Source: Pseudoruegeria sp. SK021
GTDB lineage: Bacteria > Pseudomonadota > Alphaproteobacteria > Rhodobacterales > Rhodobacteraceae
Length of the DNA stretch: 41,440 bases
Direction of reading: 5' to 3'
Assembly: GCF_002119405.1 (NCBI RefSeq)
Contig: NZ_MTBG01000031.1
Location: 1-41,440, forward strand
Part shown: positions 17 through 21,380 of the stretch, piece after piece
How the letters are laid out: every line of letters begins with the position of its first letter
Numbering within the stretch: the first letter of the stretch is position 1
Notes under the pieces: model-generated
The model's input: only the letters and a program-made list of their open reading frames with translations
The model's database searches: none
Told to the model about the DNA's origin: nothing
Position numbers and translations under genes: made by a program

Positions 17-1042
17 TCATCGCGCCGCCACTTTCGGCCGCGCCCCGCCATTGGCCTGCAAGCCGCGCAGCACCTTTTCCGGCGTGATCGGCAGGGCATC
101 CACCCGCACCCCCACCGCCGCATAGACCGCGTTGGCAATCGCGGGCAGCACCGGATTGGCGCACATCTCGCCCGGGCCTTTGCCGCCGAACGGCGCGTCT
201 TCCGCCGGACGTTCCAACACCGCGATGTGATGCGGCACCACCTGCCCCGGCCCCGGCATCAAATAGTGGTTGAAATCCTCGGCGCCATGCTCGCGCAGCG
301 GATAATACGGCTCGGTCGTCTCATACAGCGCGTGGCTGACCCCCATCCACGCCCCGCCGATCAACTGCTGCTCGACCAGCTTAGGGTTCAACGCCCGGCC
401 CACCTCATAGGCCGAGTTGATTTCGGTCACCGTGACCTCACCGGTTTCGTCATCCACTTCCAGATCGACGATCAGGGCGGCATGGGCAAAACAGGTCACC
501 GGGGTCATTTCCCCGGTTTCGGGGTCGGCCTCGGAGGGCGGGATCAGGAAAATGCCGCGCCCAGACAAGGTCCGACCCTGCTTGAACTGCGCCGCAATTG
601 ACGTCTCGGCCACGGTGATCGTCCGGCCCGGCGCGCCTTTCACATGGATGTTGCCGCGCCCGTCCGTGTCCAGATCGCTGGCGTTGACCTCCAGTTCCTC
701 GGCGGCGGCTTCCAGCATCTGCTGGCGCGCCTCCGTCGCGGCCCGGATCACCGCATTGCCCATGCGGTGCGTCCCGCGCGACGCGAATGAGCCCATATCA
801 TGCGGGCCAGTATCGCTGTCGGCGGTGTCCACATAGACATCCTCCACCGGCACGCCGATGGTTTCCGCCGCGATCTGCCGGGTGACGGATTTCATCCCCT
901 GCCCCAGATCAATGGCACTCAGCGCCACCTTGAACTTGCCGTCGGGCGTGGCATGGACCAGCGCCTGAGACGGATCGCCGCCAAGGTTCATGCCGATGGG
1001 ATAGTTGATACAGGCAAAGCCGCGTCCCTTGTGAATGGTCAT
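17..1042 (-). CDS. Molybdenum hydroxylase catalytic subunit, C-terminal half
   Basis: This 341-residue protein is the second half of a xanthine-dehydrogenase-family molybdopterin-binding subunit. It opens directly at the conserved GRGFACINYPIGMN block, carries the DLGQGM cofactor-contact motif near residues 45-50, and ends with the KGPGE motif, whose Glu292 matches the catalytic glutamate of the family. There is no signal peptide, so it should be cytoplasmic. Its ATG lies one base after the stop of the upstream gene and is preceded by AAGGAGG inside that gene's end, so translation is probably coupled. The usual large subunit is a single chain of about 700-800 residues; here the N-terminal half is a separate protein with a proline-rich tail. 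The E. barkeri nicotinate dehydrogenase, whose molybdenum subunit is also two chains, is a precedent. The substrate is unknown. Confidence 0.9.
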   Translation of the reverse strand: MTIHKGRGFACINYPIGMNLGGDPSQALVHATPDGKFKVALSAIDLGQGMKSVTRQIAAETIGVPVEDVYVDTADSDTGPHDMGSFASRGTHRMGNAVIRAATEARQQMLEAAAEELEVNASDLDTDGRGNIHVKGAPGRTITVAETSIAAQFKQGRTLSGRGIFLIPPSEADPETGEMTPVTCFAHAALIVDLEVDDETGEVTVTEINSAYEVGRALNPKLVEQQLIGGAWMGVSHALYETTEPYYPLREHGAEDFNHYLMPGPGQVVPHHIAVLERPAEDAPFGGKGPGEMCANPVLPAIANAVYAAVGVRVDALPITPEKVLRGLQANGGARPKVAAR

Positions 1043-1043
1043 C

Positions 1044-2945
1044 TCAGCGCCTCCTTGTGCCGGACAGGAAGGGCGAGGCCCCGGGCCGCTTCACCCCGCG
1101 CGAAAATGGCTGGTCCGGGGCATAAGGGGCCGCGGAGGCCGGCGCGGGGGGCTGCGGCGGTGCCGGGGGCGGCGCCGCATAGGTCGGATACGGCACCGGC
1201 ACGCTGGGTGGGGTTGGCGGTGCCTGTGGCGGCGCAAATCCCGGCGGCGGCGTGATGCTGCCACGGGGCGGCACCGGACCAGCGCTTGCCGCAGGCCGGG
1301 CCGGAACCGGGCCCGAGGGGCGCGGCGCGACCGGCGGCGGAACAGCCCCCGGCCCGCTGCCCATCCGGTGCCCGATCCGATCGGCAGCAATCTGCATGTC
1401 CTCGCGCTGGGGCGGCGCGGCAACAATCGCAACCCCGGCATGGCCCGCCGCGACCCGGCCAGTGCCGGTGCGCGCCGGGGCGGTGTCGGTCACCCGGCCC
1501 GCCCGCCGGGCCCCGATCAGCCCTTCTTGGTCTGTCACCGTCTCAGGGATGGTGCCGCGTGCGCCCTCGCCGCCGCCAACCAGACTGGAGGCCGCCGTGG
1601 ATTCGGAGCTGATCGCCCAGCCCGCCTTGCCCGCAGCCACCTGACAACACTCGATCAGCGCGGTGTTCTTGGCCACCCGCCGATGCGCCTTCATATCGCC
1701 GTCGCGATAGGCGTTGAGGATGCGCAGATCGATCGGGTTCATCCCCACCGCTTCGGCCACCCGGTCCATTTGCACCTCGATGGAAAAATCCACCCCGGTG
1801 ATCCCAAAGCCCCGCATCGCCGTCGCCGGCGTGCGGTTGGTAAAGACACAATAAACATTGGCCGCCACATTGGGGATCGAATAGGGCCCCGGCAAATGCC
1901 CGACCCCCTTGATGATCGCGTAAGAACTCAGCCGGGTATACGCGCCGCTGTCGAAGAACCCGGTGAATTCCCGGGCCACGATCCGGCCATCGCGGCGCAC
2001 CCCGTCCTTGATCCGCCAGCGTTCCGCCCCGCGCGGGGCCCCGACCTGCATCTCCTCGGGCCGGTCCCAGGCAAACTTCACCGGACGCCCGGTCAGCACC
2101 GCCCCCAGCACCGCCATCGGTTCAACGATGCTGTCGACCTTGCCGCCAAAACCGCCCCCCGCCGTGCCGCCAATGAAATGCAGCCGCGAGGACGCCAAGT
2201 TAAGCAATTTCGCCGTGGTTCCCAATGAGAAGAACAGCGCCTGCGTGTTGGTGTGGCACACATAGCGGTCATTCTGCTCGGGCGCGGCAATGGCGCCGCA
2301 AGTCTCGATCGGGGCCTGCTCAATCGGCGACATCTGATATTCGGCCTCAATGATGTGATCGGCTTGGGCGAACCCGGCCTGCACATCGCCAAAGCGCAGC
2401 TTTTGATGATCATAGCGCTCGTGATAGTCGAAGGTGTTGTTGGGATAGGTCGGGTTCACCGATGGCGCACCGGGGGCCAGCGCCTCTTCCACGTCCAGCA
2501 CATGCGGCAGGACCTCCCAATCCACCCGCACCGCCGCCACCGCCGCTCGCGCCTGCGCTTCGGTATCGGCAATCACGGCGCAGACCGGCTCGCCCTTGTA
2601 GCTGACCTTTTGCCCCGACAAGAGCGGCTCGTCATCCTTGCCGAACCCGATCAGTGACAACAGCGTGTTCAGGTTATTGGGCACGTCGCCGGGCTTGACC
2701 ACCCGGCGCACCCCCGGCATCCGCTCGGCCGCCGCAGTATCCAACGACCGGATCCGCGCATGATGATGCGGCGACCGGACCGCCCGCATATGCAGCAAGC
2801 CATCGAACAGATGGTCGTCATAGAACGGGGTGCGCCCGGTGACATGGCCCAAAATGTCCTGCCGGATCGTCGGCTTGCCGATCTCGTTCAGGGTGTCGTC
2901 GCGTTCATTTGCGAACAGGTCCTTGCGGAACTCGATGCTGGTCAT
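1044..2945 (-). CDS. Molybdenum hydroxylase catalytic subunit, N-terminal half with proline-rich tail
   Basis: Residues 1 to about 443 match the N-terminal half of xanthine-dehydrogenase-type molybdopterin subunits: the GGGFGGK motif at 263-269, AMRGFG near 376-381, and the domain starting IGKPTIRQDILGHVTGRTPFYDD. The AYRCSFR motif of CO dehydrogenase is absent, so it is xanthine-dehydrogenase-like. From about residue 444 to 633 homology stops and a low-complexity tail rich in Pro, Ala and Gly follows (densest at 530-620), ending in basic SGTRRR. The family normally continues straight into the sequence now encoded by the next gene. The start overlaps the 2Fe-2S gene stop by four bases (ATGA). 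The tail may be a flexible linker that keeps the two halves together; this is inference. A frameshift artefact is unlikely because the downstream half has its own strong ribosome-binding site. Confidence 0.9.
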   Translation of the reverse strand: MTSIEFRKDLFANERDDTLNEIGKPTIRQDILGHVTGRTPFYDDHLFDGLLHMRAVRSPHHHARIRSLDTAAAERMPGVRRVVKPGDVPNNLNTLLSLIGFGKDDEPLLSGQKVSYKGEPVCAVIADTEAQARAAVAAVRVDWEVLPHVLDVEEALAPGAPSVNPTYPNNTFDYHERYDHQKLRFGDVQAGFAQADHIIEAEYQMSPIEQAPIETCGAIAAPEQNDRYVCHTNTQALFFSLGTTAKLLNLASSRLHFIGGTAGGGFGGKVDSIVEPMAVLGAVLTGRPVKFAWDRPEEMQVGAPRGAERWRIKDGVRRDGRIVAREFTGFFDSGAYTRLSSYAIIKGVGHLPGPYSIPNVAANVYCVFTNRTPATAMRGFGITGVDFSIEVQMDRVAEAVGMNPIDLRILNAYRDGDMKAHRRVAKNTALIECCQVAAGKAGWAISSESTAASSLVGGGEGARGTIPETVTDQEGLIGARRAGRVTDTAPARTGTGRVAAGHAGVAIVAAPPQREDMQIAADRIGHRMGSGPGAVPPPVAPRPSGPVPARPAASAGPVPPRGSITPPPGFAPPQAPPTPPSVPVPYPTYAAPPPAPPQPPAPASAAPYAPDQPFSRGVKRPGASPFLSGTRRR

Positions 2946-3427
2946 CCGACAGCCCTCCCCTGCATCTGCGCCGCCGCGGTCAGAATGGCGTCGATGATCG
3001 GCTCATAGCCGGTGCAGCGGCATAGGTTGCCCGAGATCGCCTCGGCCACCTCATCCCGGCTGGGGTTCGGGCTGCGGTCCAGCAACGTCTTGGCCGCCAT
3101 CAGCATCCCCGCCGTGCAAAAGCCGCATTGGGCCGCGAAGCCGTCCATGAAGGCGCGCTGCAACGGATGCAGCTCGGCCCCATTGGCCAGCCCGCCGGTG
3201 GTCTCGATCCGCTGGCCTTCGGCCGCTTCGGCCAAGGTCAGGCAGGCCAGATGAACCTCGCCGCCAATCCGCACCGTGCAGGCGCCGCAAGTGCCCTGCC
3301 CGCAGCCATGCTTGGGCGTCAGATCCCCCGCGCCGCGCCGCAACACATCCAGCAGATTTGCGCCGGGATCGACGAACAAGGCCACCTCGGCATCATTCAG
3401 GGTAAACCGTACCGGAACCTTCGCCAT
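2942..3427 (-). CDS. Molybdenum hydroxylase 2Fe-2S subunit
   Basis: A 161-residue small subunit of a molybdenum hydroxylase that passes electrons from the molybdenum centre to FAD. The N-terminal plant-ferredoxin-type cluster uses Cys42, Cys47, Cys50 and Cys62 (GCGQGTCGAC and later LAC). The C-terminal helical-bundle cluster uses Cys101, Cys104, Cys136 and Cys138 (CGFC and CRC). All eight ligands are present and the length is normal for the family. The gene sits between the FAD gene (TGATG overlap) and the catalytic N-half (ATGA overlap), the order FAD, Fe-S, Mo seen in many such operons. No export signal is visible. Confidence 0.97.
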   Translation of the reverse strand: MAKVPVRFTLNDAEVALFVDPGANLLDVLRRGAGDLTPKHGCGQGTCGACTVRIGGEVHLACLTLAEAAEGQRIETTGGLANGAELHPLQRAFMDGFAAQCGFCTAGMLMAAKTLLDRSPNPSRDEVAEAISGNLCRCTGYEPIIDAILTAAAQMQGRAVG

Positions 3428-4227
3428 CAGACCCGCCTTTCCGCCAGCAACAACCGTTTCAAATGGACCGGAGCGACCTCGCGCCGATACCAGGCCGAGG
3501 CCAGCGCATCATCCGCCGGGGCCAACCCCTCTGCCGCCACCCGCACCGCCGGCGCGATCCCGTCCGCGTCCAGCGTCACGCCGCGCAGCGCCGCCTCAGC
3601 CGCCTTGGCCCGCAGCGGCGTTGGCCCCATCGCGCCAAAGGCCAGCCGTGCCGCGCCGACCCGGCCCGCCGCCATGGGCAACCATCCGGCAATGGACATC
3701 ACCGACACCCCTTTCGGCTTGACCCGGCTGACCTTGTGAAACCGGAACTCGCCCGTCGCCGGACGCGGCACCTGCACCGCCGCCACCAGTCCGCGCGTAC
3801 CAGACCGGCCCGCCAGAAACGGCTCGATCCCTTCGCGGTGGCCATCGGCCCAGATCACCTGCGCATCCAGTGCCAACAGAGCCACCGTGAAATCACCGTA
3901 GGGATGCGCCGCAAACAGATTGCCGCCCACCGTCGCCATGTTGCGGATCGCCGGGCCACCAATCACCCGCGCCACCGGGGCCAGAAAATCCAATTCCCGG
4001 GACGCGATCACCTCGGCCATGGTCACGCCCGCGCCGATCCGGATGCCGCCGCTGTCATGGCGAATCTCGCGCAGCGCCGCATCGCCGCTGCGCAGCAACG
4101 TTTCGATCCCCGTCGCGCCATAATTCATCGCCCGCATCACCAATGTGCCGCCCGCGATGTACCGGCTACGCTCGCGCATCGCTGCCGCCGCCCCGGCAAG
4201 GGTCGGATGGGTTTCAACCGTCTGCAT
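3427..4227 (-). CDS. Molybdenum hydroxylase FAD-binding subunit
   Basis: A 266-residue medium subunit of the CO dehydrogenase/xanthine dehydrogenase flavoprotein type. The two flavin-binding loops are visible: AGGTLVM near residues 25-31 and ATVGGNLFAA in the middle, followed by a CO-dehydrogenase flavoprotein C-terminal domain. It accepts electrons from the 2Fe-2S subunit. The start codon overlaps the end of the upstream SRPBCC gene by 14 bases, and the stop overlaps the 2Fe-2S start, so the four-gene enzyme is tightly coupled. Length is close to the family norm and nothing looks broken. Confidence 0.96.
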   Translation of the reverse strand: MQTVETHPTLAGAAAAMRERSRYIAGGTLVMRAMNYGATGIETLLRSGDAALREIRHDSGGIRIGAGVTMAEVIASRELDFLAPVARVIGGPAIRNMATVGGNLFAAHPYGDFTVALLALDAQVIWADGHREGIEPFLAGRSGTRGLVAAVQVPRPATGEFRFHKVSRVKPKGVSVMSIAGWLPMAAGRVGAARLAFGAMGPTPLRAKAAEAALRGVTLDADGIAPAVRVAAEGLAPADDALASAWYRREVAPVHLKRLLLAERRV

Positions 4228-4672
4228 GTTCGGCCTCCGCGTTCAGTTGCGCCCGGATCGCATCGAACCCGGCCTGATAAATCTGTGCGCCCACCAGCGC
4301 CTCTAACTCGGCCTCGCGGCCTTTCGGCGTGTCGAACCGGCAGGACCATTCCCAGAAGGTCGCATCCCCGTCAGTGACCGGGATCAGCCGCACGTGGGCG
4401 ACATAATTGAACAGCGGCACCGGGGTCTCGAGCAGGCAGTAGCTAAAGCTCATCTCCAGATCCGACAGGGTCAGCAGTTGCTCGCGCAACTCCGATCCGT
4501 CTGTCAGGATGAACCGCCGCACCGCGCCGATCCGGTCGCCATCGCGGCCACGCTCGATCTGACTGCTGCGCACTGCCGGGTGCCATTGGTCATGGCCGTT
4601 AAAGTCCCGCAACACGGCCCAGACCATGTCCACCGGCGCATCCAAAACGGTGCTGCGAAGGATCTTGACCAT
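4214..4672 (-). CDS. SRPBCC (START/Bet v1-like) protein 1
   Basis: A 152-residue single-domain SRPBCC-fold protein, usually a small hydrophobic-ligand cavity. It begins MVKILRSTVLDAPVDMVWAVLRDFNGHDQWHP, the typical opening strand and helices of polyketide-cyclase/dehydrase-like members. This start was chosen over an in-frame ATG 15 codons upstream because AAGGGGG lies at good distance in front of it. The gene overlaps the FAD subunit by 14 bases. CoxG, which helps attach CO dehydrogenase to the membrane, shares this fold, so a membrane-tethering or electron-acceptor-docking role for the adjacent hydroxylase is possible. That is inference; a ligand-binding or cyclase role cannot be excluded. 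Confidence 0.88.
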   Translation of the reverse strand: MVKILRSTVLDAPVDMVWAVLRDFNGHDQWHPAVRSSQIERGRDGDRIGAVRRFILTDGSELREQLLTLSDLEMSFSYCLLETPVPLFNYVAHVRLIPVTDGDATFWEWSCRFDTPKGREAELEALVGAQIYQAGFDAIRAQLNAEAEHADG

Positions 4673-4756
4673 CCGCGCCCCCTTACGCCAACCGCAAGCT
4701 GCGACGGGCGCCGCCATCTGTCCAAGTCTCTGTCATTGCTGCCCTCCTAAGCCCGG

Positions 4757-4805
4757 TCCGAAAAAGGTCCGACGAAAATCCGATAAAAGTCCGACGATAA
4801 TCCTA
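4757..4805. repeat. 11-bp phased TCCGA repeat, copy A
   Basis: On the plus strand TCCGA occurs at 4757, 4768, 4779 and 4790, with the variant TCCTA at 4801. Every step is exactly 11 bp, about one helical turn, and the spacers are A-rich. In the transcribed (minus) direction it begins at the stop codon of SRPBCC protein 2 and precedes SRPBCC protein 1. A near-identical array lies at 19340-19389, also just after a stop codon in the same block. It could be a DNA-binding array on one helix face or an RNA element with regularly spaced GGA motifs; its function is unknown. Confidence 0.8.
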
Positions 4806-5240
4806 TCCACCAAAATGCCGTTTCAGCGCATCAAAGCCGCCCTGAAACACGTTGGTGCCGACCCCCGAAACCAGCCCGGCCTCGTCTTCCGGCGCACAGG
4901 AAAATTCCGCCGACCATTCGGCAAAACAGCGCCCACCATCGGTCACCGGCGTCAGGCGCAGGGTCGAGATATAGTCGGTCAACGGCATCGGACTTTCGAG
5001 GATGCCATAGGTGTAGAATAGGTCGTAATCGCTCAGTCCCAGCAGTTGCTCGCGCAGCCGGTCGCCGTTCTGTAGCGTGAAGTTGCGGATGCATCCGACC
5101 TTGTCGCTGGGCAGGGCGTCCTCAATCCGGCTGTCGCGGATGCGCGGGTGCCACTTGGGCATCCCGTTGAAATCACGTACTCTTTCCCAGACCTTTTCGG
5201 CCTCTGCCGGGATCACCGATGAAATATAGACCCGCGCCAT
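4803..5240 (-). CDS. SRPBCC (START/Bet v1-like) protein 2
   Basis: A 145-residue SRPBCC-fold protein, paralogous to its downstream neighbour: both share the pattern RDFNG-x-x-x-WHP near residue 22-32, an REQLL-x-LSD segment in the middle, a PLTDY or PLFNY strand, and RLTPVTDG or RLIPVTDG before the last strands. The duplication suggests two related lipophilic ligands or a heterodimer. The ATG directly abuts the flotillin stop codon (TAA then ATG). The phased 11-bp repeat begins at its stop codon. A role in assembling or anchoring the molybdenum hydroxylase is inferred from position and from the CoxG analogy only. Confidence 0.9.
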   Translation of the reverse strand: MARVYISSVIPAEAEKVWERVRDFNGMPKWHPRIRDSRIEDALPSDKVGCIRNFTLQNGDRLREQLLGLSDYDLFYTYGILESPMPLTDYISTLRLTPVTDGGRCFAEWSAEFSCAPEDEAGLVSGVGTNVFQGGFDALKRHFGG

Positions 5241-8213
5241 TTAGGCTTTCCCCTCTGCTTTGGGGGCGTCCTTGGACCGCTTCTGCCGCTCCAATTCGCC
5301 CGCCGTGCGCGTCAGATCCGAGGCCTCGCGGATCAGCCCGCCCTGACCCGCAATATTGGCGCCGTCGATGCCGATATCCTTCAACAGCCCGTCGATCATC
5401 GGGGCCTGCACGCGATAGCGCAGGGCCGAATTGATGACCTCGTCCGTCGGGCTGGTGCCGCTGCCGCCGCTGCCATTCTGGCCGTCGCCCGACCAACCGA
5501 GGCCGTTCGACCCGGACCCACCAAGCTGCATAATCCTGATATCGTTGATCTTTTCCAAAGGCTTGACCGATGCCGCGACAATCCCTTCCACATGTTCCAG
5601 CATCTTGCGCTTGAACAGACTGGTGCGGGCGCCCTCGCTCAGCACGTTCTCGGCCTCGTTGATCAGCTTCTGCGCCTCGGCTTCGACCGCAGCACGGATG
5701 CGTTCGGCTTCCGCCCCGATCCGCTTTTCGTCGGCCATCTTCTCGGCCAGAGTCACATCGACAGCCTTGCGGCGGCTGGCGCCTTGAGTCTCGGCCATGG
5801 TGGTGACCTTTTCGCTGGCTTCCACAGCCCGGGCGCGGGCGTTTTCTGCCTCCACAGCGGCCGCGCTTTGGTCCAATGATTTCTGGTACAAGGCGATGGC
5901 CTTTTCCATCGTTGCCTCTTCCACCGCCTTCTCGCGGGCGATCTCTTTGCGCCGACGTTCGGTCTGGTGGCCAATCCGGGCCTCATCCAGTCCCAACTCA
6001 CTGGCGATCTGGGCGCGTTCGATGTCTTCTTGACTGGCAATCTCGGCCTCGCGCAGGGCGTGAACCCGTTCGATTTCAAGGTGTTCCAGCACGCGACGCC
6101 GGTCGAGCTTTCTGGCGTCGATCTCTTGCTCGGCCAGAATGCGTTCTGCATCCACGGTCTTGGACTTAGCAACTTTCGCCGCCTCGATGGCCTCGTCGGC
6201 GGCAATCTGTGCCGCGTCCAGCGCCTTGTTGCGGGCAATCTCAAGATCGCGGATCCGGCCATCGCGCGCGATCTTATCGGCGGAGGTTTCGGCCTCTTTC
6301 TCGATCCGTTGACTGTCAACCAGACGCCGCGAGCTGATCTCGGCTGCCTCGATGGCCTCGTTCTTTTCGATCTCACGCGAACGAATTTCGGCGTCCTTAG
6401 CGATCTCGGCTGCCCGGGTACGCGCCTGTTCGGAAATGCGGGCCGCACTGACCTGTTCTTGCGCGTTCAGATTGGCGACATCGACGGCGCGGTTGCGGGC
6501 GATCTCGCGTTCGCGCAGATCCTGATCCTGGGCAATCCGCTCGGCAGCCAACGCCTGCTCTTGCGCGATCTGATCCCGCTCGGTTTCTTCCCGTGCTGCA
6601 ATCTCGGCCTTGTCCAGCGCCCTTTGCCGGTCGATTTCCAACGCACGTGTTGCTTGTTCTGCGCTGATCCGGTCTGCCGCCAGTATCTTTTCGCGGGCGA
6701 TCCGCGCCGCTTCCGTGGCCTGCTGGCTGGCGATTTCGGCCTGATCCAGCGCCTCTTTGCGCGCGATTTCCAGCACACGGGTTTCCCGGTCCGAGTCGAT
6801 CCGCTCGGCGCTGAGCACCCGCTCTTGCGCGATCCGCAACTTTTCCGCAGCTTCGCGGGCCGCAATTTCCGCCTCATCAATGGCAAGGTTGCGGGCGATT
6901 TCTTGCTTGCGGGTGGTGCGTTCGTGATCGATCCGGGCTTGGGTGATTTCGCGCTCTTGGGCAATGCGCGCTTTCTGGATCATCTGATCCGCCGAAATGC
7001 CGGCTTCGTCGATCACCCGCTTGCGTTCTATTTCTTTCGACTGGGTGTCCTGATCTTTGGCGATCCGCGCCTCAATCAGGGATTTTTCTTGGGCGATCCG
7101 GGCCTTCTCGGTGGACTCAAGCGCGGCAATTTCCGCCGCTTCGGTTTCCCGTTTGGTGGCAATCCGCGATTCCGTCAGCGCCTTTTGCTGATTGATCCGC
7201 GCCTTTTCTACCAATTCCTGCGTGGCAATCTCCGCCTCGTCGATCACCCGTCCGCGTTCAATCTCTTGCTGGCGAATGGTGCGTTCCGACGCGATCCGCG
7301 CCTCTGCGATCTGCTGGTCATTGGCGATCCGTGCCGTTTCAATCGCCTCGCGCGACAAAAGCTGGGCCTGTTCGGCCTCTTTCTCGCGCTCGGACCGTTC
7401 CCGGGTCAGCTCTGACCGCTGCAAGGCCCGGCGGAATTCGATCTCACGCTCTTGATCCAGGCGCGCGGATTCGCTGTCACGCTCAATATTCAAACTTTGC
7501 CGCTCGGCCTCAAGATTTCGACTACGGATCTGGATCATCGTGTCTTGTTCGATGTCGTTGCGTAGCTTGCGGCGCGCCTCGATCACTTCGATCACCGAGG
7601 TCAGACCTTCGGCATCAAACCGGTTCGAGGGATTGAAATAGGCGATGTCAGTCTGGTCAATGTCCAGAATCGCAACGCTTTCCAGTTCCAGCCCGTTCTT
7701 GTCCAGCCCGGCTTGCGCCGTCTCCAGCACCCGCTCGACATAGGCGTTCCGCTGGCTGTGCAGCTCGTCCATGGTCATGTCTGCAGCGACCGTGCGCAGG
7801 GCTGAGACGAACTTGCCCGCCAGAAGCTGATGGATGCGTTCCGGTTCCAACGTCCGCCGCCCTAGGGTCGACGCGGCCAGCGTCACCGCTTCGCGCGTTT
7901 GCTTGACCCGCACATAGAAGCTCGCCTCGACATCCACCCGCATCCGGTCCTTGGTGATCAGCGCCTGCTCGCGTTCGCGGGTGACGTTCAGATCAAGCGA
8001 GTTCATGCTTACCGGCGTGATGTCATGAATGATTGGCCAGACAAAGGCGCCGCCGTCGATCACCACTTTCTCGCCCATAAACCCGGTCCGGACGAAGGCG
8101 ATTTCCTTCGTTGAGCGGCGATAGAGCCAGTTCATCACCCAATAGAGGATGAAGATTACAATTACGGCCATGATTAGCCATAGGATCAGCTGTCCGATCA
8201 GTTGTCCGGTCAT
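5241..8213 (-). CDS. Flotillin-like SPFH protein with greatly expanded hendecad coiled coil
   Basis: A 990-residue membrane scaffold protein. Residues 5-30 form one N-terminal membrane segment; an SPFH/band 7 domain follows to about residue 215 (IDGGAFVWPI, VRVKQTREAVTLAA). Residues 293 to about 776 are charged coiled coil made of 44-residue units, each four 11-residue hendecads of the type ARIAQExxLxx. The flotillin C-terminal region (LFKRKMLEHVEGIVAASVKPLEKI, about 866-889), a Gly/Ser-rich linker (about 898-920) and a terminal flotillin domain (DEVINSALRYRVQAP) follow. E. coli YqiK, a related protein, is about 550 residues, so this is nearly double, the excess being the repeats. The gene starts one base after the TIM-barrel gene's stop with GGAGG in front. 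Flotillins organise membrane microdomains; here it may scaffold the transporter or oxidase, which is inference. Confidence 0.93.
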   Translation of the reverse strand: MTGQLIGQLILWLIMAVIVIFILYWVMNWLYRRSTKEIAFVRTGFMGEKVVIDGGAFVWPIIHDITPVSMNSLDLNVTREREQALITKDRMRVDVEASFYVRVKQTREAVTLAASTLGRRTLEPERIHQLLAGKFVSALRTVAADMTMDELHSQRNAYVERVLETAQAGLDKNGLELESVAILDIDQTDIAYFNPSNRFDAEGLTSVIEVIEARRKLRNDIEQDTMIQIRSRNLEAERQSLNIERDSESARLDQEREIEFRRALQRSELTRERSEREKEAEQAQLLSREAIETARIANDQQIAEARIASERTIRQQEIERGRVIDEAEIATQELVEKARINQQKALTESRIATKRETEAAEIAALESTEKARIAQEKSLIEARIAKDQDTQSKEIERKRVIDEAGISADQMIQKARIAQEREITQARIDHERTTRKQEIARNLAIDEAEIAAREAAEKLRIAQERVLSAERIDSDRETRVLEIARKEALDQAEIASQQATEAARIAREKILAADRISAEQATRALEIDRQRALDKAEIAAREETERDQIAQEQALAAERIAQDQDLREREIARNRAVDVANLNAQEQVSAARISEQARTRAAEIAKDAEIRSREIEKNEAIEAAEISSRRLVDSQRIEKEAETSADKIARDGRIRDLEIARNKALDAAQIAADEAIEAAKVAKSKTVDAERILAEQEIDARKLDRRRVLEHLEIERVHALREAEIASQEDIERAQIASELGLDEARIGHQTERRRKEIAREKAVEEATMEKAIALYQKSLDQSAAAVEAENARARAVEASEKVTTMAETQGASRRKAVDVTLAEKMADEKRIGAEAERIRAAVEAEAQKLINEAENVLSEGARTSLFKRKMLEHVEGIVAASVKPLEKINDIRIMQLGGSGSNGLGWSGDGQNGSGGSGTSPTDEVINSALRYRVQAPMIDGLLKDIGIDGANIAGQGGLIREASDLTRTAGELERQKRSKDAPKAEGKA
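5886..7337 (-). repeat. Coding repeat: about 44 tandem hendecads (44-residue superunits)
   Basis: Residues 293-776 of the flotillin align as 44-residue units beginning at 293, 370, 414, 458, 502, 546, 590, 634 and 678. The unit at 337-369 is exactly 33 residues, and one extra 11-mer (722-732) precedes the last unit at 733-776. Insertions and deletions are therefore whole hendecads (33 bp). Ala-x-Ile, Ala-Arg-Ile and Glu-Ile-Ala-Arg recur at fixed positions. The 11/3 periodicity implies a nearly straight or right-handed coiled coil rather than a heptad one. DNA copies have diverged, so the expansion is not very recent. Confidence 0.85.
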
Positions 8214-8214
8214 C

Positions 8215-14161: not shown

Positions 14162-14243
14162 GGTTCGCGGAACACGGCTTCCCTCCCTCTCGGGCGCTGG
14201 CCCGGTTGGGCTGGCGCTTGTCCTCAGGCTAGGGCGGGGTCCG

Positions 14244-15277: not shown

Positions 15278-16357
15278 TCAGAACACCGCTTGCATGATCG
15301 ACAAGGCGCAGCCGGCTCCGTTGATCGCGTCCAAGGTTCCGCTGCCCGACAGGCTGCGCGCCGCACGGGCCAGATCGGCCCGGGTCAGCCCCAGTTCCGA
15401 CAGCGAGACCGCCAGTGGCAGGTCTTGCAGAAACACCCCCAGACCAGTCGCCAGATCGGTCTCCGCATCCAAGCCCATGATCCGGCGCAGCGGCCGGCTT
15501 CGGTCGCCGCTGCCGTGCTGGGCGCGCAGGACCCCCGGCACCAGCAGCCGCGCCGCGGCCCCGGCATCCAGCCCTTGGGCACTGGCCGCGATCAGGGCAT
15601 CCCCAATGATCTGGGTCGGGCCGATCCCCTTTTGCTGCGCCAACACCGCATTCAGACTGGCGGCCATCAGGTCCCGGCGCACCTCGATGCGTTCGTCGCC
15701 AAACAGCAGATGCAGCGATTGCGCCACCCGGTTCAGCCCGTCCAGCGCCATACCATCTGCGGGCGGGTTGAACGCGGGCGACAGATACGCCTCCAGACAG
15801 CGCACCAGTGTCGCCACCGCCGCACTGGCGCTTTGCGACAGGTCGGCCCCCAACGTCACGGTCGGATCACAGATCAGGATCGAGGGCAGCCCCGATTTCA
15901 CATGCAGATCAGTTGAGGATTGGGTCTCGGTCTGCTGGGCGCGACTGTGGCCCGGAAGCCCGTCGATCCCCGGCACCGCAAACAGGGCCAGCGCCGGATC
16001 TTTGGCCTCACGCGCCCGGCCATCGGTGCGGGTCTCGCGCCGGATCTTGCGGCCAACTGAAATCGCCCGGGCCGAGCCATAGGCCAGAATCACATCCGCC
16101 GATTTCCGGTGCAACAGCGCCGCCAGATCGCTGCGGATCGTCTGCGCCGAGGCGCGGGTGTCGATGGGGTAATGGATGGGCCGACTACAGCGCGGCAACC
16201 CGGAATACACCCGCTCGGTAAAGCTGCTATTCGTCAGGCCCGCATCGGCCAGCACGAGGGGCGCCCGATAGCCATGGGTCTCTAGCTCAGACCGCAGGGC
16301 TTCTTCCAACACACCATCGGCAAAATGCGCGCGCAGGGGAAAGGTGATCAGGGTCAT
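15278..16357 (-). CDS. Iron-alcohol-dehydrogenase-like protein lacking canonical metal ligands
   Basis: A 359-residue protein with the fold pattern of iron-containing alcohol dehydrogenases and maleylacetate reductases. Seen are an N-terminal nucleotide-binding half with ADVILAYGSARAISVGRKI in place of the GGGSxxDxAK motif, the hinge strand LPSILICDPTVTLG, and the helix LEAYLSPAFNPPADGMALDGL. In FucO the metal is held by Asp and His of the DALTH motif and two later histidines; here the equivalent stretch reads AATLVRCLEAY-like with Ala and Arg, and the later VPHG histidine is not found. It probably no longer binds iron in the usual way. Whether it is an enzyme with another mechanism or a binding protein is unknown. 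MTLITFPLRAHF was taken as start; only a weak AGG precedes it. Confidence 0.72.
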   Translation of the reverse strand: MTLITFPLRAHFADGVLEEALRSELETHGYRAPLVLADAGLTNSSFTERVYSGLPRCSRPIHYPIDTRASAQTIRSDLAALLHRKSADVILAYGSARAISVGRKIRRETRTDGRAREAKDPALALFAVPGIDGLPGHSRAQQTETQSSTDLHVKSGLPSILICDPTVTLGADLSQSASAAVATLVRCLEAYLSPAFNPPADGMALDGLNRVAQSLHLLFGDERIEVRRDLMAASLNAVLAQQKGIGPTQIIGDALIAASAQGLDAGAAARLLVPGVLRAQHGSGDRSRPLRRIMGLDAETDLATGLGVFLQDLPLAVSLSELGLTRADLARAARSLSGSGTLDAINGAGCALSIMQAVF

Positions 16358-16403
16358 GTCCGGACCTGCCGTGCAAGGAAGACCGATAAGGGACCATCCC
16401 GCT

Positions 16404-16438: not shown

Positions 16439-16458
16439 GCGCGACAGAGGCTGTACGC

Positions 16459-17727
16459 TTAGTACGAGGTCTTGCACTCTGGCGTGTCACGGCTGGGCAA
16501 GCCGATCGCGTCAAACGCCGCTTTGTCGATGCCCAGCGTCTGGTTCACGTTCTCTTTCGTGGCGACCAGTTGGTTGGCAAGCGTGCCATCGTCCAATTGC
16601 ACCACCTCGGTGATGAAGTTGGTTCCGATCGCCTGCCGGTTCTCATCCAGCGTGATGGTCCCGTTCGGGGCCTCAAGCGTGATGTTGGACAAGCAATCGC
16701 GGAACCCGGCCTGACCCTCTCCCAAATTGCCCTCGACCGTATCCATGCATTGCAGCACTGCCAGCGTGGCGTTGTAATAGCCGGTGGCAAACAGGGACGG
16801 CGTTGGGAAACGCTCGCTCTCGGGGAAGGTCTCCTGATACAGTTGCACAAAACTGGTCCAGCGCGGATCGTCCCACGTGTCGGCCTGGGGCCCCGACGAT
16901 GGCACCCCGACCAGCGCTTCCTTGGCCGAGCCCTGACTGTTCAGCACGGTGCCATCCACCATGATGGTGCCGCCGATCAGGTTCGCCTCGCCGCCCGCTT
17001 GCTGGTACTGGTTCAGGAAGTTAACGGCATCGCCGCCGCCCAGCCCCAAATAGATGGCGTCGACATCATCCGGTAAGGCCGCGATGATTGAGCCGAAATC
17101 CTTGGTCCCAAGCGGCACCCAGAACCGGTCGGTGATCTCGCCGCCCGCAGCGCAATACTCCGTCGCAAAGCCAAAGACCTGTGTGTAGATGAACGAATAA
17201 TCCTCGCCCACCGTGGCCACGGTCTTATAGCCCTTTTCGTTGAAGACGTAATCGCCCAGACCCGCTGACCACTGCGCCCCATCAATATTGAAGCGGAAGA
17301 AGTTCTCAGAGGGGGTGACATAGGTGGTCTCCATCGCGCCGGAGATCCCGTTGATGAAGGTGACGCCGGGCTGGGTCTTGGAATAATCCCGGATCGCGAT
17401 GCCTTCCGAGCCGGACAAGGGGCCGATCACGATATCGACCTGATCCTGCTCGACCAGTTTGCGCGCCGCCCGTACCGCGCTGTCCGGAGTGGTGTCGGTC
17501 GAGGCGACGATCACTTCAATGGCGCGCCCCCCGGCCATGTTGTCCGCCTCTTGCAAAGCGGCTTCCAAACCGCGGATGCCGTCCTCGCCCAAGGCGGTAT
17601 AGGTGCCCTCCAGCGTCGCCAGAACGCCGATCTTGACCGGACCCTCATGGGATGCCGCCTGGACCGAAGTTGCCCCTGCCGCGATCAACGCCAGCGTGGA
17701 CAAGGTGTTCAGATAGGGTTGTCTCAT
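16459..17727 (-). CDS. Periplasmic substrate-binding protein of Liv/amide type
   Basis: A 422-residue exported binding protein. Residues 1-24 are a signal peptide (MRQPYLN, hydrophobic core TLALIAAGATSVQA, cleavage before SHEG). The mature part is a type I periplasmic binding fold starting KIGVLATLEGTYTALGEDGIRGLEAAL, with ADNMAGGRAIEVIVASTDTTPDSAVRAARKLVEQDQVDIVIGPLSG, as in branched-chain amino acid and short-amide binding proteins. GGAGG precedes the chosen ATG; the frame stays open 175 codons further upstream but that part has no export signal or homology. It should deliver the ligand to the LivH/LivM permeases, which are separated from it by two genes. Confidence 0.95.
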   Translation of the reverse strand: MRQPYLNTLSTLALIAAGATSVQAASHEGPVKIGVLATLEGTYTALGEDGIRGLEAALQEADNMAGGRAIEVIVASTDTTPDSAVRAARKLVEQDQVDIVIGPLSGSEGIAIRDYSKTQPGVTFINGISGAMETTYVTPSENFFRFNIDGAQWSAGLGDYVFNEKGYKTVATVGEDYSFIYTQVFGFATEYCAAGGEITDRFWVPLGTKDFGSIIAALPDDVDAIYLGLGGGDAVNFLNQYQQAGGEANLIGGTIMVDGTVLNSQGSAKEALVGVPSSGPQADTWDDPRWTSFVQLYQETFPESERFPTPSLFATGYYNATLAVLQCMDTVEGNLGEGQAGFRDCLSNITLEAPNGTITLDENRQAIGTNFITEVVQLDDGTLANQLVATKENVNQTLGIDKAAFDAIGLPSRDTPECKTSY

Positions 17728-18059
17728 CAGTTCCTCCCGATGTGGGATCCTGGCGCACTGCGTGTACGCACGTCCCTGACAAACCGTCGCAGGGAAGCCG
17801 CGCACAACGGATCGCGCAGAGTGCGCCGGCGTAACGCAGGGTCTGTTTTTCAGCCGCGCGGACCGGTCCTGCGGCACCATTTGGCCCCCAAATCGGGTCA
17901 GAGTGCCCCCTCCGCCATCCAGAATCGGTGGCCGCCTCGGTTCGTGGCCGGGATCGCCCCCCGCGTCCACCACCGGTATCGTCACAACGCTGGCGTCCGC
18001 TTCCGGCTCAATCGGCGCAGCCGGGCCGGTCTGGCACCGCCGCGGCCCAGATGGACGGT
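17728..18059 (-). promoter_or_regulatory. 332-bp gap upstream of the binding protein, with operator-like inverted repeat
   Basis: No supported gene lies here. TGCGTGTACGCA at 17759-17770 is a pair of 5-bp inverted arms around a 2-bp centre, about 32 bp before the binding-protein start codon, in the position of an operator in the 5' leader. The amidase ends at the far side. A promoter for the binding protein is likely in this gap, but no convincing -35/-10 pair could be picked. Confidence 0.4.
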
Positions 18060-19211
18060 TCAGGTGGCCGCGGCCAATGCGATCAGCGCCCGATCCTGAC
18101 CGGCAGCGCCGATCAGGCTCAGGCCCACCGGGCCGCCATCCACCACCCCTGCCGGGACCGATAATTGCGGCAATCCCCCCAGACCCGCCGGGCATAAGGA
18201 CCGCAGCGCGCGCGACCGGAACGCATCCAACGCCGCCGCATCCATATTGCAAAGCGGGGCCGGGCTGGGACAGGTCGGCAGTACCAGCACAGTCTCTGCC
18301 GTCATCACCGCGGCCAGACGCTGACGAATTTCAAGGCGATGCGCCCGGGCGTCAGCAATCTGACCCTCTGTCAGGGCGGCGGCCATGGCAAAGCGCTCGG
18401 CCACGCCGGGGCCAAATTCTGGCTTGGCCGCTTGCACCCAGTCGCCATGGGTCTGCCAGATTTCCGCAGCCTGCGTGATCCGAAAGGTCTCACACCAGCG
18501 GTCGATGCCGTCCGGGGCGAGCACCACCGGACAGGCCGGCCCCATCCGGGCCTCAAGATCCGCCAATGCCGGGGCCAGCGCCGCCACTGTCTCCGCATCC
18601 GCCTGCGCCCACAGATCCACCGGCAACAACAGTTGCGTCGGGGCCTCTGCGGCGGGCAACCCCATCGCCTCGGCAACCCGGGCCATCACCGCGCCATCAC
18701 GGGCAAACCAGCCACAGGTGTCAAAGGATGGCGCCAACGGCCGCGCCCCGGTCAGCGGCAACAGCCCATGGGTGGTGCGCAATCCCCAAACGCCACAGAA
18801 CGACGCCGGCGCCCGTACCGATCCGCCGGTGTCGCTGCCCAGCCCGATATCGACCAGACCCGCCGCCACCGCCGCCACCGACCCCGAGGACGACCCCCCC
18901 GGCACCCGTCGTGGATCGGCACTGTTTTTCGGGGTGCCGTAATGGGCGTTCACCCCCAGCAGGCTATAGGCCAGCTCGTCAGTATGGGTCTTGCCCAGAA
19001 CCGTCGCCCCAGCCGCCAGAAAGCGGTCGACCACGGCCGCATGGACCTCTGGCACCGGATGCTGCGCCGCCCAGTCCGGACTACCAAAGCCAGTGACATG
19101 GCCCGCCACATCATAAAGATCCTTGACCGCAAGGGTCAGTCCACCTAGCGGCCCATCCGCCGCGCCAGGCAGGGTAAAGGTCTCGATAAAGGCGTCTGCG
19201 GTGTCGTCCAT
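18060..19211 (-). CDS. Amidase (amidase-signature family, AMI1-like)
   Basis: A 383-residue amidase-signature hydrolase that cleaves amides to carboxylate and ammonia. The Ser-cisSer-Lys triad is visible: Lys30 in LTLAVKD, Ser107 in GGSSSGS, and nucleophile Ser131 in DTGGSVR, at normal spacing. The order VTGFGSPDW, GATVLGKTHTDELAYS and HYGTPKN resembles plant indole-3-acetamide hydrolase AMI1 more than large AtzF-type enzymes. MDDTADAF was chosen as start because GGAGGGGG lies five bases ahead. It follows an HpxZ/AtzH-like gene and an HpxW-like gene, the company kept by HpxY/AtzE amidohydrolases, so a small urea or amide acid derivative is a reasonable substrate guess. Confidence 0.92.
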   Translation of the reverse strand: MDDTADAFIETFTLPGAADGPLGGLTLAVKDLYDVAGHVTGFGSPDWAAQHPVPEVHAAVVDRFLAAGATVLGKTHTDELAYSLLGVNAHYGTPKNSADPRRVPGGSSSGSVAAVAAGLVDIGLGSDTGGSVRAPASFCGVWGLRTTHGLLPLTGARPLAPSFDTCGWFARDGAVMARVAEAMGLPAAEAPTQLLLPVDLWAQADAETVAALAPALADLEARMGPACPVVLAPDGIDRWCETFRITQAAEIWQTHGDWVQAAKPEFGPGVAERFAMAAALTEGQIADARAHRLEIRQRLAAVMTAETVLVLPTCPSPAPLCNMDAAALDAFRSRALRSLCPAGLGGLPQLSVPAGVVDGGPVGLSLIGAAGQDRALIALAAAT

Positions 19212-19339
19212 AAGTCCCCCTCCGGGCAAGTGCAGGTCGGGCAGCGCGTGGCACAACCGCAGCGCCTTCTCATTGATCATACTGTGGTTGCCTAGGTTCG
19301 GCCACCGCTTGATCGGCCCGCGCATCCCGCTCCCGGCAG

Positions 19340-19389
19340 TCCGACACAGGGCCCGACGAAAGTCCGATAAAAGTCCGACGTTAGTCCGA
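19340..19389. repeat. 11-bp phased TCCGA repeat, copy B
   Basis: TCCGA occurs on plus at 19340, 19363, 19374 and 19385, with the variant CCCGA at 19352; steps are 12, 11, 11 and 11 bp. The core from the variant to the third unit is nearly identical to copy A at 4757-4805. In the transcribed direction the array begins inside the last codons of the HpxZ-like gene, whose final Ser-Asp codons supply the first unit. It runs toward the amidase. It may represent a genome-wide intergenic element. Confidence 0.8.
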
Positions 19390-19758
19390 CATCAGCGAAA
19401 CATGGGCGGCGACGATTTTCCAGCCCCCCTCCAGTCTGGCCCAACTGTGGCTTTGACGCCCGATCCCGGCGCTGCTGTCGCGCCGAAACTCGGTATTCGC
19501 CGTCGCAAAATCCCGCCCAAATGTGGTGATCACGGTCGATCGCAATTCTCGCGCCAATCCCGCCGACGGCCGCGCCTTGCGGAACGCCAAAATCTGCGCG
19601 TGGCCGTAAAGGTTCTCGGTCGCGCCATAGCGGACCACGGCAGAGCTGTCCCAAAACAGCCCGTCCAAAACCGCGACATCATTGCCCGTCAATGCCGCCT
19701 CATAGGCGTTGAATGCCGCCGTGACTTCGGCCAGAACCTCGGGAATATTGATGTCCAT
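19381..19758 (-). CDS. HpxZ/AtzH-like protein
   Basis: A 125-residue NTF2/SnoaL-fold protein of the AtzH-like group, which includes HpxZ of the Klebsiella oxalurate cluster. Typical blocks are AFNAYEAALTGNDVAVLDGLFWD near the start, RYGATENLYGHAQILAFRKAR in the middle and SHSWARLEGGWKIVAAHVSLM at the end. The biochemical role of this family is unclear; members accompany amidohydrolases in oxalurate and s-triazine ring catabolism. It sits between the HpxW-like gene (38 bases upstream) and the amidase. The DUF4089-type small protein (HpxX/AtzG) found in related clusters was not seen. Confidence 0.88.
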   Translation of the reverse strand: MDINIPEVLAEVTAAFNAYEAALTGNDVAVLDGLFWDSSAVVRYGATENLYGHAQILAFRKARPSAGLARELRSTVITTFGRDFATANTEFRRDSSAGIGRQSHSWARLEGGWKIVAAHVSLMSD

Positions 19759-19796
19759 CGTGTTGATTTATCCTTATTTTTTAGCAGGTTCGCGCG

Positions 19797-21380
19797 TCAG
19801 TATCCCAGCGCGGCCCCATCCTTGCGATGATCCGATCCGGCGATATAGCCCGTTCCGTGACGCGCAATCAGTTGCGCCCCGCCAAAGCCAAACGCATTGT
19901 CCGGTGCCTCGCGGATAATCTCATGCCCGAGGGCGGTCAACGCGGCCACTGTCGCGTCCGGCATCGTCGATTCCACCGCCAGCTTGCGTCCGGAAATGAC
20001 CCGCCAACGCGGCGCGTCGCTGGCCGTCTGCGGCGACTGCCCGAACAGCACCATACGCACCATCATCTGCACATGGCCCTGCGCCTGCATCGGACCGCCC
20101 ATCACCCCAAAGCTCATCCAAGGCGCGCCGTCGCGCATGGCAAACCCCGGAATAATGGTATGAAACGGGCGCTTAGCCGGTCCGACCTGATTGGGATGTC
20201 CCGGCTCCAGCACAAATCCGGCCCCGCGGTTCTGCAGGTGAATGCCGGTTCCCGGCACCACCACCCCCGATCCGAACCCGGAAAAATTCGACTGGATGAA
20301 CGACACCATTCTGCCCGCTTCATCCGCAGCCGTCACCATCACCGTGCCCCCCATGGTCGGCGCGCCAGCCCCCGGGTCTTGCGCCTGCGCCCGGTCGATC
20401 AACGCCGCCCGGCGGGTTAAATAGCCATCATCTAACAGCGCCTCTGGCGTCACCGCCATGCTGCCGGGGTCCGAGACGAACGCCTCGGCATCTGCCAAGG
20501 CCAGCTTCACCGCCTCGATCTGCAAATGCAGGCTCGCAGGGTCGTCCGGATCTGTCGCGTTGAGGGCCAGACGCTCCAAGATCCCCAAGGCAATTAGGGC
20601 CGCGATGCCTTGGCCATTTGGCGGAATTTCATGCAGTTCAGTGCCATGAAATCCCGTTTGGATCGTGCCACACCAATCGACCCGGTGCGCGGCCAGATCC
20701 GCTTTGCTCAACGCCGCACCGTGGGACGCGGCGGCCGCTGCGATCCGCTCGGCCAAGGCCCCATGATAGAACGCATCACCGCCGGTATCGGCAATGGCAG
20801 TCAGGCTAGCGGCCAGATCGGGGTTGCGGAACGTCTCGCCTGCATGCGGGGCGCGGCCGCCCGGCATGAATGTCTCGGCAAAGCCCGGCTGGTCCTGCAA
20901 CTGCGCCGCACCGATCTTCCAAAGCTTTGCAATTGTTGGCGATATCGCAAAGCCATCGCAGGCATAGCCGATTGCAGGTCCAAACAGGGTTGCGAAAGGA
21001 AGCGCCCCAAACCGGTCAGACAGCGCCCGCCATGCAGACACGGCCCCCGGGACGGTCACGCTGTCCCAGCCGCGCAACGGCATGGTGGTCTGACCAGCGA
21101 ACCGGTCGGGATGCCACCCGGCGGGCGACCGTCCCGAGGCGTTTAGGCCGTGCAATTCGGCCCCGTCCCACACGATGGCGAACGCATCACTGCCCAGCCC
21201 ATTCCCGGTCGGTTCCACCACCGTCAGCGTGATCGCCGTGGCGAGGGCGGCATCGACAGCGTTCCCCCCCGCCAGCAACATCCGCAGTCCGGCTTGGGCC
21301 GCAAGCGGCTGCGAGGTCGCCACCACATTGCGGGCCAGAAGGGAACTGCGATGGGTCGGATAACAGCTTTCAAACGTCAT
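19797..21380 (-). CDS. Gamma-glutamyltransferase-family amidohydrolase, HpxW-like
   Basis: A 527-residue Ntn-hydrolase of the gamma-glutamyltransferase family. It should self-cleave before Thr346 in GGTVMVTAAD, the position of the nucleophile, giving large and small subunits. Downstream are SFIQSNFSGFGSGVVVPGTGI and FHTIIPGFAMRDG, typical of the HpxW/oxamate amidohydrolase branch. No signal peptide is visible, unlike classical periplasmic GGT, which supports a cytoplasmic amidohydrolase. It is the first gene of the 21-kb minus block, with the HpxZ-like gene 38 bases downstream. Oxamate or a related half-amide is plausible but unproven; no strong ribosome-binding site is visible before the ATG. 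Confidence 0.9.
   Translation of the reverse strand: MTFESCYPTHRSSLLARNVVATSQPLAAQAGLRMLLAGGNAVDAALATAITLTVVEPTGNGLGSDAFAIVWDGAELHGLNASGRSPAGWHPDRFAGQTTMPLRGWDSVTVPGAVSAWRALSDRFGALPFATLFGPAIGYACDGFAISPTIAKLWKIGAAQLQDQPGFAETFMPGGRAPHAGETFRNPDLAASLTAIADTGGDAFYHGALAERIAAAAASHGAALSKADLAAHRVDWCGTIQTGFHGTELHEIPPNGQGIAALIALGILERLALNATDPDDPASLHLQIEAVKLALADAEAFVSDPGSMAVTPEALLDDGYLTRRAALIDRAQAQDPGAGAPTMGGTVMVTAADEAGRMVSFIQSNFSGFGSGVVVPGTGIHLQNRGAGFVLEPGHPNQVGPAKRPFHTIIPGFAMRDGAPWMSFGVMGGPMQAQGHVQMMVRMVLFGQSPQTASDAPRWRVISGRKLAVESTMPDATVAALTALGHEIIREAPDNAFGFGGAQLIARHGTGYIAGSDHRKDGAALGY

Follow-up and report, generated by a model that had tools for sequence, protein, structure and literature searches.

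The contig NZ_MTBG01000031.1 of Pseudoruegeria sp. SK021 (C31; 41,440 bases of a 3.97-Mb genome) was analyzed in its entirety, and is referred to here as the window. Its minus strand carries, at positions 17-21380, eighteen genes arranged head to tail, which were lettered A to R in the order of their transcription. The comparison of gene neighborhoods shows that an ATP-binding cassette (ABC) importer, a pair of Tm-1 family proteins, two SRPBCC proteins, a flotillin, a molybdenum (Mo) hydroxylase made up of four polypeptides, a pair of the CoxD/CoxE type, and three more hydrolases are encoded by genes that stay together as a single unit. As judged from related loci, the full cluster has about twenty genes and extends past the window. 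It is tentatively proposed, with a probability a little short of even, that this cluster serves the import and breakdown of small ring compounds of one class, with lactones and amides as intermediates.

Conservation and extent of the cluster

The relatives of the block were collected with a profile of the UPF0261 half of gene J, which was run on GTDB genomes and returned at least 592 relatives, of which the best 80 named loci were analyzed. Gene presence was counted by tblastn, given that the clustering of open reading frames (ORFs) picks some wrong-frame ORFs in GC-rich loci, and fourteen genes (D, F, and G-R) were treated as the core and scored in the 62 loci of at least 19 kb. All fourteen core genes were found in 46 of these 62 loci, and in the identical order in every one of the 46. 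The sequence-only reading of the window had proposed a search for ten or more genes co-occurring with the UPF0261 fusion, the flotillin, and the split Mo subunit, and the recurrence of just such a set supports D-R as one conserved system. The same reading had listed eighteen minus-strand genes, all of which are present in the ORF list, and had named families (the Liv-type importer, HpxW, HpxZ, and amidase, the Tm-1 pair, the flotillin, two SRPBCC proteins, and the split Mo hydroxylase) that Pfam confirms. Its view of the whole 21 kb as a single system holds for D-R, but not for the trio A-C, which has no same-strand counterpart in any of the 80 loci, and the edges that it had drawn at 17 and 21380 have to be moved, as the system starts at D and continues past the contig to genes on a second contig, C38.

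The 16 loci without the full set include two that lack F (L070 and L076), one that lacks D (L109), one in which the contig ends before R (L063), and six Mo-free versions (L089, L107, L110, L129, L135, and L138). Only partial gene sets were found in L124, L130, L132, L134, and L136, while the Q gene of L060, missed by tblastn, is present on direct translation. The carriers range from Rhodobacteraceae to Bosea and Bradyrhizobium, the latter with many genomes, and also include Roseisalinus, Roseibium, Jannaschia, Hoeflea, Phreatobacter, and Acuticoccus. One record titled Frankia sp. RB7 (L099) resembles Bradyrhizobium in both gene order and identity, which may be due to a misnamed record or to contamination. 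The gammaproteobacterial loci of Natronospirillum and Halomonas (L130 and L134) represent a further version of the module, in which K, the TIM gene, is present more than once, next to an SRPBCC gene and to importer genes that mostly have 26-45% identity.

Surveys at the level of genomes point in the same direction. The fusion J was found as a single match in 9/121 genomes, the source genome included, and in two pieces in a tenth (G099), and most block genes recur in the same order around these fusions, with fewer in G035 and G099. R-type subunits at 81-100% identity occur in five of 73 genomes (again counting the source genome), all of which have the fusion, and the next best match listed reaches no more than 38%. 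The fusion-bearing genomes without R among these 73 are G028, where the contig has 4,976 bases, and G035 and G099, with no Mo genes at their loci. Within 385 genomes of the class, R was detected at E<=1e-100 in eight, in six of them at 68% identity or more and always on the same contig as J, less than 10 kb from it, with J in a long (fusion-length) frame; in the other two (G294 and G387; best R 54-58%), R lies on different contigs than an unfused J. Fusion status in this set was judged by the length of the open frame, with a cut at 700 aa, which is an indirect sign. By this measure, 19 of the 34 UPF0261-bearing genomes have a fusion-length frame, including the six R carriers, and the chance of finding all six among 19/385 would be 6e-9 if the genomes were independent, which does not hold.

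In the relatives, the genes that lie 3' of R encode a CoxD-type AAA+ ATPase, a CoxE-type VWA protein, an Amidohydro_2 protein, a metallo-beta-lactamase-fold protein, and a fusion of an SGL (gluconolactonase) domain with an isochorismatase domain. A search of 29 genomes or records for this last gene found it in 25 with an identity of at least 60%, and the four without it at that level are all Mo-free versions. From those 25, 20 regions were fetched around the gluconolactonase-isochorismatase gene, which is present in 20/20 by construction, and CoxD was found in 19, CoxE in 19, the amidohydrolase in 18, the metallo-hydrolase in 19, and R in 15, as some stretches end before R. The downstream genes keep a single order and strand in all 20 regions, and the gaps in the set are confined to the end of a 3.8-kb contig (L165), one locus without the amidohydrolase (L154), and one without the metallo-hydrolase (L167). 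Past the gluconolactonase-isochorismatase gene, no gene was common to many loci.

In the window itself, R ends 16 bases before the contig edge. Another contig of the same genome (C38:1-3352; L150) opens inside the amidohydrolase gene and continues with a metallo-beta-lactamase-fold, lactonase-like protein and the gluconolactonase-isochorismatase fusion. CoxD and CoxE would fit into a gap of about 2 kb that separates the two contigs. These two proteins serve the maturation of the Mo site of carbon monoxide (CO) dehydrogenase, as described in passages of PMC4240915. The downstream hydrolases are of L-fucono-lactonase-like, N-acyl-homoserine lactone (AHL)/4-pyridoxolactonase-like, gluconolactonase-like, and isochorismatase-like classes, and the isochorismatase domain is nearest to the PRK11440, RutB, and biuret hydrolase models, all below their cut-offs.

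The importer fusion, the Mo hydroxylase, and their partners

The start sites of the genes were inferred from an annotated relative and from ribosome-binding sites. With these starts, the spacings from G to R range from -14 to 4 bases, with a single gap of about 130 bases between M and N, and because of this tight spacing G-R looks like one operon. The D-E, E-F, and F-G gaps are of about 100-160 bases each.

The importer is complete and of the Liv/Urt type, with one binding protein, two permeases, and two ATPases identified by Pfam, all of them on the minus strand, like every other gene of the block. The periplasmic substrate-binding protein (Peripla_BP_6) is encoded by D (16459-17727, in an ORF that runs to 18252; 57/62 loci), the LivH-type permease by G (13103-14116, ORF to 14161; 59/62), the LivM-type permease by H (12016-13098; 59/62), and the LivG-type ATPase by I (11222-12019, ORF to 12082; 60/62). 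The second ATPase, of the LivF type, is covalently fused in J (9061-11232, ORF to 11313) to a complete UPF0261 domain, that is, the Tm-1 N-terminal family, and this fusion was found as one segment in 72 of the 80 named loci. Between the binding protein and the permeases lie an iron-containing alcohol dehydrogenase that resembles 4-hydroxybutyrate dehydrogenase (E, 15278-16357) and is optional, being present in 22/62 loci, and an AraC-family regulator (F, 14244-15116; 49/62), both assigned by Pfam.

The UPF0261 half of J matches the tomato Tm-1 structure 3wry with an E of 2e-101 over residues 342-739, and 9mpy with an E of 1.3e-57. Directly after it, K (8215-9057; 61/62 loci) encodes a TIM-barrel, PEP_hydrolase-like partner of the Tm-1 C-terminal family, which matches 2p10 with an E of 1.4e-113. 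The two genes thus form a Tm-1 pair, with complete UPF0261 N and C domains and an adjoining PEP_hydrolase/TIM protein, and the UPF0261 domain passes two NCBIfam models named "hypothetical protein". According to sections of PMC5028733, UPF0261 has co-evolved with the TIM ("TBST") proteins in bacteria, archaea, and fungi, whereas plants have the two as a single fused protein; the term "ABC transporter" is absent from the main text of that paper. A UPF0261 gene of Brucella is among the hits of an in vivo screen, with nothing on its reaction in the relevant part of PMC2364660, and no assignment of a reaction to the UPF0261/Tm-1 family was found in the open-access literature.

The annotated surroundings of eleven unfused Tm-1/TIM pairs on plasmids, picked from 206 matching records, provide a view of the module outside the cluster. 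A Liv-type importer adjoins one of these pairs (Thermomicrobium), sugar-type importers adjoin five, and a BMP-type importer adjoins one, and the remaining four have lone binding-protein genes (two cases), a metal importer on the opposite strand (one), or none (one). The pair is followed by an SRPBCC gene in 5/11 cases and by a cupin gene in 3/11, and among these are unfused Tm-1/TIM/SRPBCC triplets next to importers of the sugar or BMP type. As unfused pairs with SRPBCC or cupin genes adjoin importers in this way, the plasmids suggest that the Tm-1 pair is a portable module attached to importers. A second recurring set beside Tm-1 pairs, seen in L188, L190, L192, and L193, is made up of a PEP_hydrolase-family protein of about 580-615 aa, a Gfo/Idh/MocA oxidoreductase, and a cupin protein.

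The Mo hydroxylase is encoded by O (FAD subunit, where FAD is flavin adenine dinucleotide; 3427-4227; 51/62 loci), P (2Fe-2S subunit; 2942-3427; 51/62), Q (Mo subunit part 1; 1044-2945; 50/62, together with L060 by direct reading), and R (Mo subunit part 2; 17-1042; 50/62). According to Pfam, MoCoBD_1 and MoCoBD_2 are thus on separate, adjoining genes in Q and R. The best matches of Q and R in the Protein Data Bank (PDB) are chains A and B of 3hrd, which are the L and M subunits of the nicotinate dehydrogenase of Eubacterium barkeri, and for this reason the split of the Mo subunit is a known architecture. A frameshift as the cause of the split was rejected, since both the split and the intervening tail are kept in the relatives.

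This tail, which forms the C-terminal part of Q and has about 190 residues in the window, is the new feature of the enzyme. Between residues -90 and -15, it has a mean of 45% proline plus alanine (52 rows), and its end is RRR in 51 rows and RKR in one, i.e., in 52 of 55 rows with the window included, while the other three (G046, L063, and L080) run off their contigs. The tail is missing from the nearest relatives found outside the system (L177, L178, and L180). These stretches (L177:476-3932, L178:1-3161, and L180:9068-12576; G294 and G387) carry a split, four-subunit Mo hydroxylase at 47-58% identity in Q and R, with no other block gene on them, and form a natural outgroup.

Between the Tm-1 pair and the Mo hydroxylase lie three further Pfam-assigned genes. 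L (5241-8213; 57/62 loci) encodes a long flotillin of 990 aa, with both the Band_7 and the Flot Pfam domains, which scores below the cut-off of the NCBIfam FloT equivalog (36 bits vs 700). The SRPBCC proteins are encoded by M (4803-5240; 61/62) and N (4214-4672, ORF to 4717; 57/62). M has a predicted helix-grip fold with a predicted local distance difference test (pLDDT) score of 95, and the nearest solved structures are uncharacterized SRPBCC proteins and the plant PYR/PYL hormone receptors, with lachrymatory-synthase proteins among the other titles of the 50 nearest structures listed. This predicted fold is consistent with M binding a small ligand.

A sister version of the cluster, found in Fodinicurvata (L107), Azospirillum (L110), Variovorax (L142), and others, keeps the importer, the fusion, the TIM protein, the flotillin, and both SRPBCC proteins, and lacks O-R. 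L129 was the sole sister locus that was scanned, and its N protein carries a fused domain similar to NADPH:quinone reductase (277 bits vs a cut-off of 348). The genes that follow encode an FAA-hydrolase-like protein, an alpha/beta hydrolase that resembles enol-lactonases, and an amidohydrolase; genes of these kinds are annotated in the Variovorax record too, together with a long SRPBCC protein. Given that the quinone-reductase-like fusion substitutes for the Mo enzyme, it seems that one oxidation module can be exchanged for another. The theme common to both versions, as read from their gene content, is an importer, the Tm-1 pair, SRPBCC proteins, one oxidation module, and then hydrolases of lactone-like or enol-lactone-like and amide types. 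The Mo-free cluster of Variovorax paradoxus VAI-C (L142) is on a plasmid record of 2.5 Mb.

A proposed pathway and its alternatives

Under the proposal made at the outset, the importer would bring the substrate in, and the UPF0261 and TIM proteins, held at its inner mouth by the fusion, would perform the first step, the product of which the SRPBCC proteins may hold or convert. The Mo hydroxylase would then add a water-derived oxygen to a ring carbon, or oxidize an aldehyde or lactol, to give a lactone or lactam. The rings would be opened by the amidohydrolase, the metallo-hydrolase, and the gluconolactonase domain, an amide would be cleaved by the isochorismatase domain, and alcohol and aldehyde dehydrogenases of the host or of the cluster would finish the conversion to a dicarboxylic acid. 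In this line, the flotillin is likely a membrane scaffold, and the tail of Q, with its fixed basic end, may serve for docking, with CoxD/CoxE or the flotillin as the most likely partners.

A more general idea, which is possible but held with some doubt, is that UPF0261 is the enzyme half of a portable, importer-coupled module (UPF0261, TIM, and SRPBCC or cupin proteins) that acts on the substrate as it leaves the ABC importer. The coupling would be covalent here, the flotillin scaffold and the docking-tailed Mo hydroxylase would complete a membrane-side line, and the sister version would use another oxidation module. The sequence-only reading had seen a logic of import, hydroxylation, and amide hydrolysis that pointed to an N-heterocycle or amide-bearing compound; this survives as regards the Mo hydroxylase, the amidohydrolase, and the isochorismatase domain, but the trio is not its carrier, and lactone chemistry is pointed to as much as amide chemistry.

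Several points weigh against the proposed pathway. The NCBIfam scan, which covered the cluster except for F, G, and H, placed none of its enzymes above the curated cut-off of a model with a named function, and the reactions are therefore assigned by class only, just as the substrate class is one that we infer. The NCBIfam types also disagree between the two Mo subunits, with Q best to the xanthine dehydrogenase PucD and R to 4-hydroxybenzoyl-CoA reductase, both far below their cut-offs. Low model confidence in the tail of Q is weak evidence of disorder, since the predicted structure of the whole Mo subunit is poor (pLDDT 60.5). The dehydrogenases needed for the last steps are not constant, as the aldehyde dehydrogenase family was found in 17 sequences and the alcohol dehydrogenase E only in the 22 loci given above. 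The assembly of the window's own genome yielded no orthologue of CoxD or CoxE, with 33% identity for the best CoxD match, and their loss in this strain is for this reason possible. The 80 loci were chosen from at least 592 relatives by their similarity to the fusion, and related genomes among them are not independent. Finally, M and N have no match to the CoxG Pfam family at E<=10, only to Polyketide_cyc2/Polyketide_cyc, and no CoxG title is found among the 50 structures listed for M; a CoxG-type quinone shuttle was rejected as the role of the SRPBCC proteins on these grounds.

The breakdown of an N-heterocycle in the manner of nicotinate, in which the Mo enzyme would hydroxylate the N-heteroaromatic ring and the amidohydrolase and isochorismatase would open it and release ammonia, comes near to the view of the sequence-only reading. 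It is unlikely, though it has to be taken seriously, given that both Mo subunits match 3hrd best and share its gene split, and that the isochorismatase domain lies nearest to the three models named above. However, nicotinate dehydrogenase is missing the tail of about 190 residues, three of the four hydrolase domains here are lactonase-like, the core genes include no ring dioxygenase or hydantoinase, and the HpxW-HpxZ-amidase trio lies outside the system. The oxidation of a sugar-like compound or aldehyde, with the Mo enzyme acting as an aldehyde dehydrogenase to produce an aldonic acid or lactone for the lactonases, seems quite improbable. It would agree with the fucono- and gluconolactonase-like hydrolases, with the sugar-type importers and the Gfo/Idh/MocA and cupin genes that adjoin unfused Tm-1 pairs, and with P, which is best to the glyceraldehyde dehydrogenase gamma model of NCBIfam (156 bits, with a cut-off of 290), but the importer of the cluster is of the Liv/Urt and not of the sugar type, the isochorismatase domain is left without a role, and the PDB scores of Q and R are higher for nicotinate dehydrogenase than for aldehyde enzymes.

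Energy scavenging in the manner of CO dehydrogenase, coupled to the membrane by the SRPBCC proteins and the flotillin, is very improbable. CoxD and CoxE do adjoin the Mo genes in the relatives, and CoxG is reported, in part of PMC13240472, as a quinone-binding partner of Mo-CO dehydrogenases, but CO would need neither an importer nor four hydrolase domains, and the active-site loop of Q is AMRGFG in 22/22 aligned rows, with no cysteine. At that position of the loop, the CO enzyme (CoxL) presumably has a cysteine. With this loop, with nicotinate dehydrogenase (3hrd) as the best structural match, and with no CoxG family match, the identity of the enzyme as a CO dehydrogenase was rejected. A chance run of unrelated catabolic genes would fit the absence of the fusion from all six other genomes of the genus, but the order is fixed across several families of Alphaproteobacteria, which leaves this explanation an extremely small probability; gene conservation refutes it for D-R, and the chance reading holds for the trio A-C. 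The import and breakdown of a ring compound through lactones and amides is the reading retained here. A lead that stays beside it is that of AttKLM/BlcABC, with a gamma-lactone as the substrate. Of its genes, the two dehydrogenases are optional in the cluster, and scores are low, as in the case of E, which has 127.7 bits to the NCBIfam 4-hydroxybutyrate dehydrogenase equivalog, with a cut-off of 500. AttKLM/BlcABC is taken here to consist of an alcohol dehydrogenase, an aldehyde dehydrogenase, and a lactonase.

A catabolic cluster built on a Mo hydroxylase is of a known kind, and what is unusual in this one, of which no description was found in the open-access literature, is the fusion of importer and enzyme, together with the conserved tail. 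UPF0261/Tm-1 is a widespread family, best known for the tomato protein that blocks a plant virus, and the cluster sets it in a defined catabolic context. As the binding protein of the importer can be screened for its ligand, the chemistry of the family would become directly testable, and this in a catabolic cluster that is conserved in genera common in soil and the sea, among them Bradyrhizobium, Bosea, and Roseibium.

Neighboring genes and comparison with known systems

Upstream of D, the window carries an HpxW/GGT-like gene (A, 19797-21380), an HpxZ/AtzH gene (B, 19381-19758; NCBIfam 193.6 bits, with a cut-off of 135), and an amidase gene (C, 18060-19325), all on the minus strand and identified by Pfam. 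With the start of D moved to 17727, about 330 bases part C from D. The trio was rejected as a member of the system. Neither B nor C has a match in the 80 named loci, and the one match to A, at 28% identity, is on the opposite strand of L070, while in 58 of the 68 D-bearing loci at least 2.0 kb are visible upstream of D, enough to show C and B if these were placed as in the window. Fifteen further stretches, each of 40 kb at most, gave a single match to the trio, an amidase at 29% identity (G079). B was found in 5/73 genomes, the source genome included, one of which is of the same genus (72% identity) and has no fusion, and it is missing from the block-bearing genomes G010, G020, G031, and G032. 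In G099, B and C occur together, about 200 kb from the UPF0261 fusion.

Elsewhere in the window, two adjoining sulfatase genes lie on the plus strand at 29866-33379, outside the block, and are followed by a HAD-like gene at 33398-34450. A weak transposase-type helix-turn-helix (34828-35370) and an integrase-core fragment (40820-41194) lie near the right end of the contig, and may possibly be the cause of the contig break there. A promoter scan gave 6 sites, near the shuffled expectation (mean 3.9, standard deviation 2.1), and terminator-like sites were above it (27 vs a mean of 14.4, standard deviation 3.9) and mostly intragenic; neither result was used.

Among the known systems, the Hpx (oxalurate/oxamate) genes share with the window the HpxW-like and HpxZ genes directly upstream of the block, but these form a separate unit that is not conserved with it. 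The cox gene cluster is similar in its FAD, FeS, and Mo genes, with the CoxD AAA+ and CoxE VWA genes and SRPBCC genes nearby, and different in that the cluster described here has a split Mo subunit with no cysteine in its loop, SRPBCC proteins that are not CoxG, and an importer with hydrolases. The nicotinate dehydrogenase of E. barkeri shares the division of the Mo subunit between the two cofactor-binding domains, and we take its FAD and FeS polypeptides to be separate as well. That enzyme has no tail, however, whereas Q has a long Pro/Ala-rich one ending in RRR, and, unlike those of nicotinate dehydrogenase, the genes here sit with an importer, a Tm-1 pair, a flotillin, and CoxD/CoxE. Finally, the tomato virus-resistance family (Tm-1/UPF0261 with TBST) has the same combination of a UPF0261 protein and a TIM-barrel partner, adjoining in this case, but here UPF0261 is fused to the ATPase of an ABC importer, and not to the TIM domain, and forms part of a catabolic operon.

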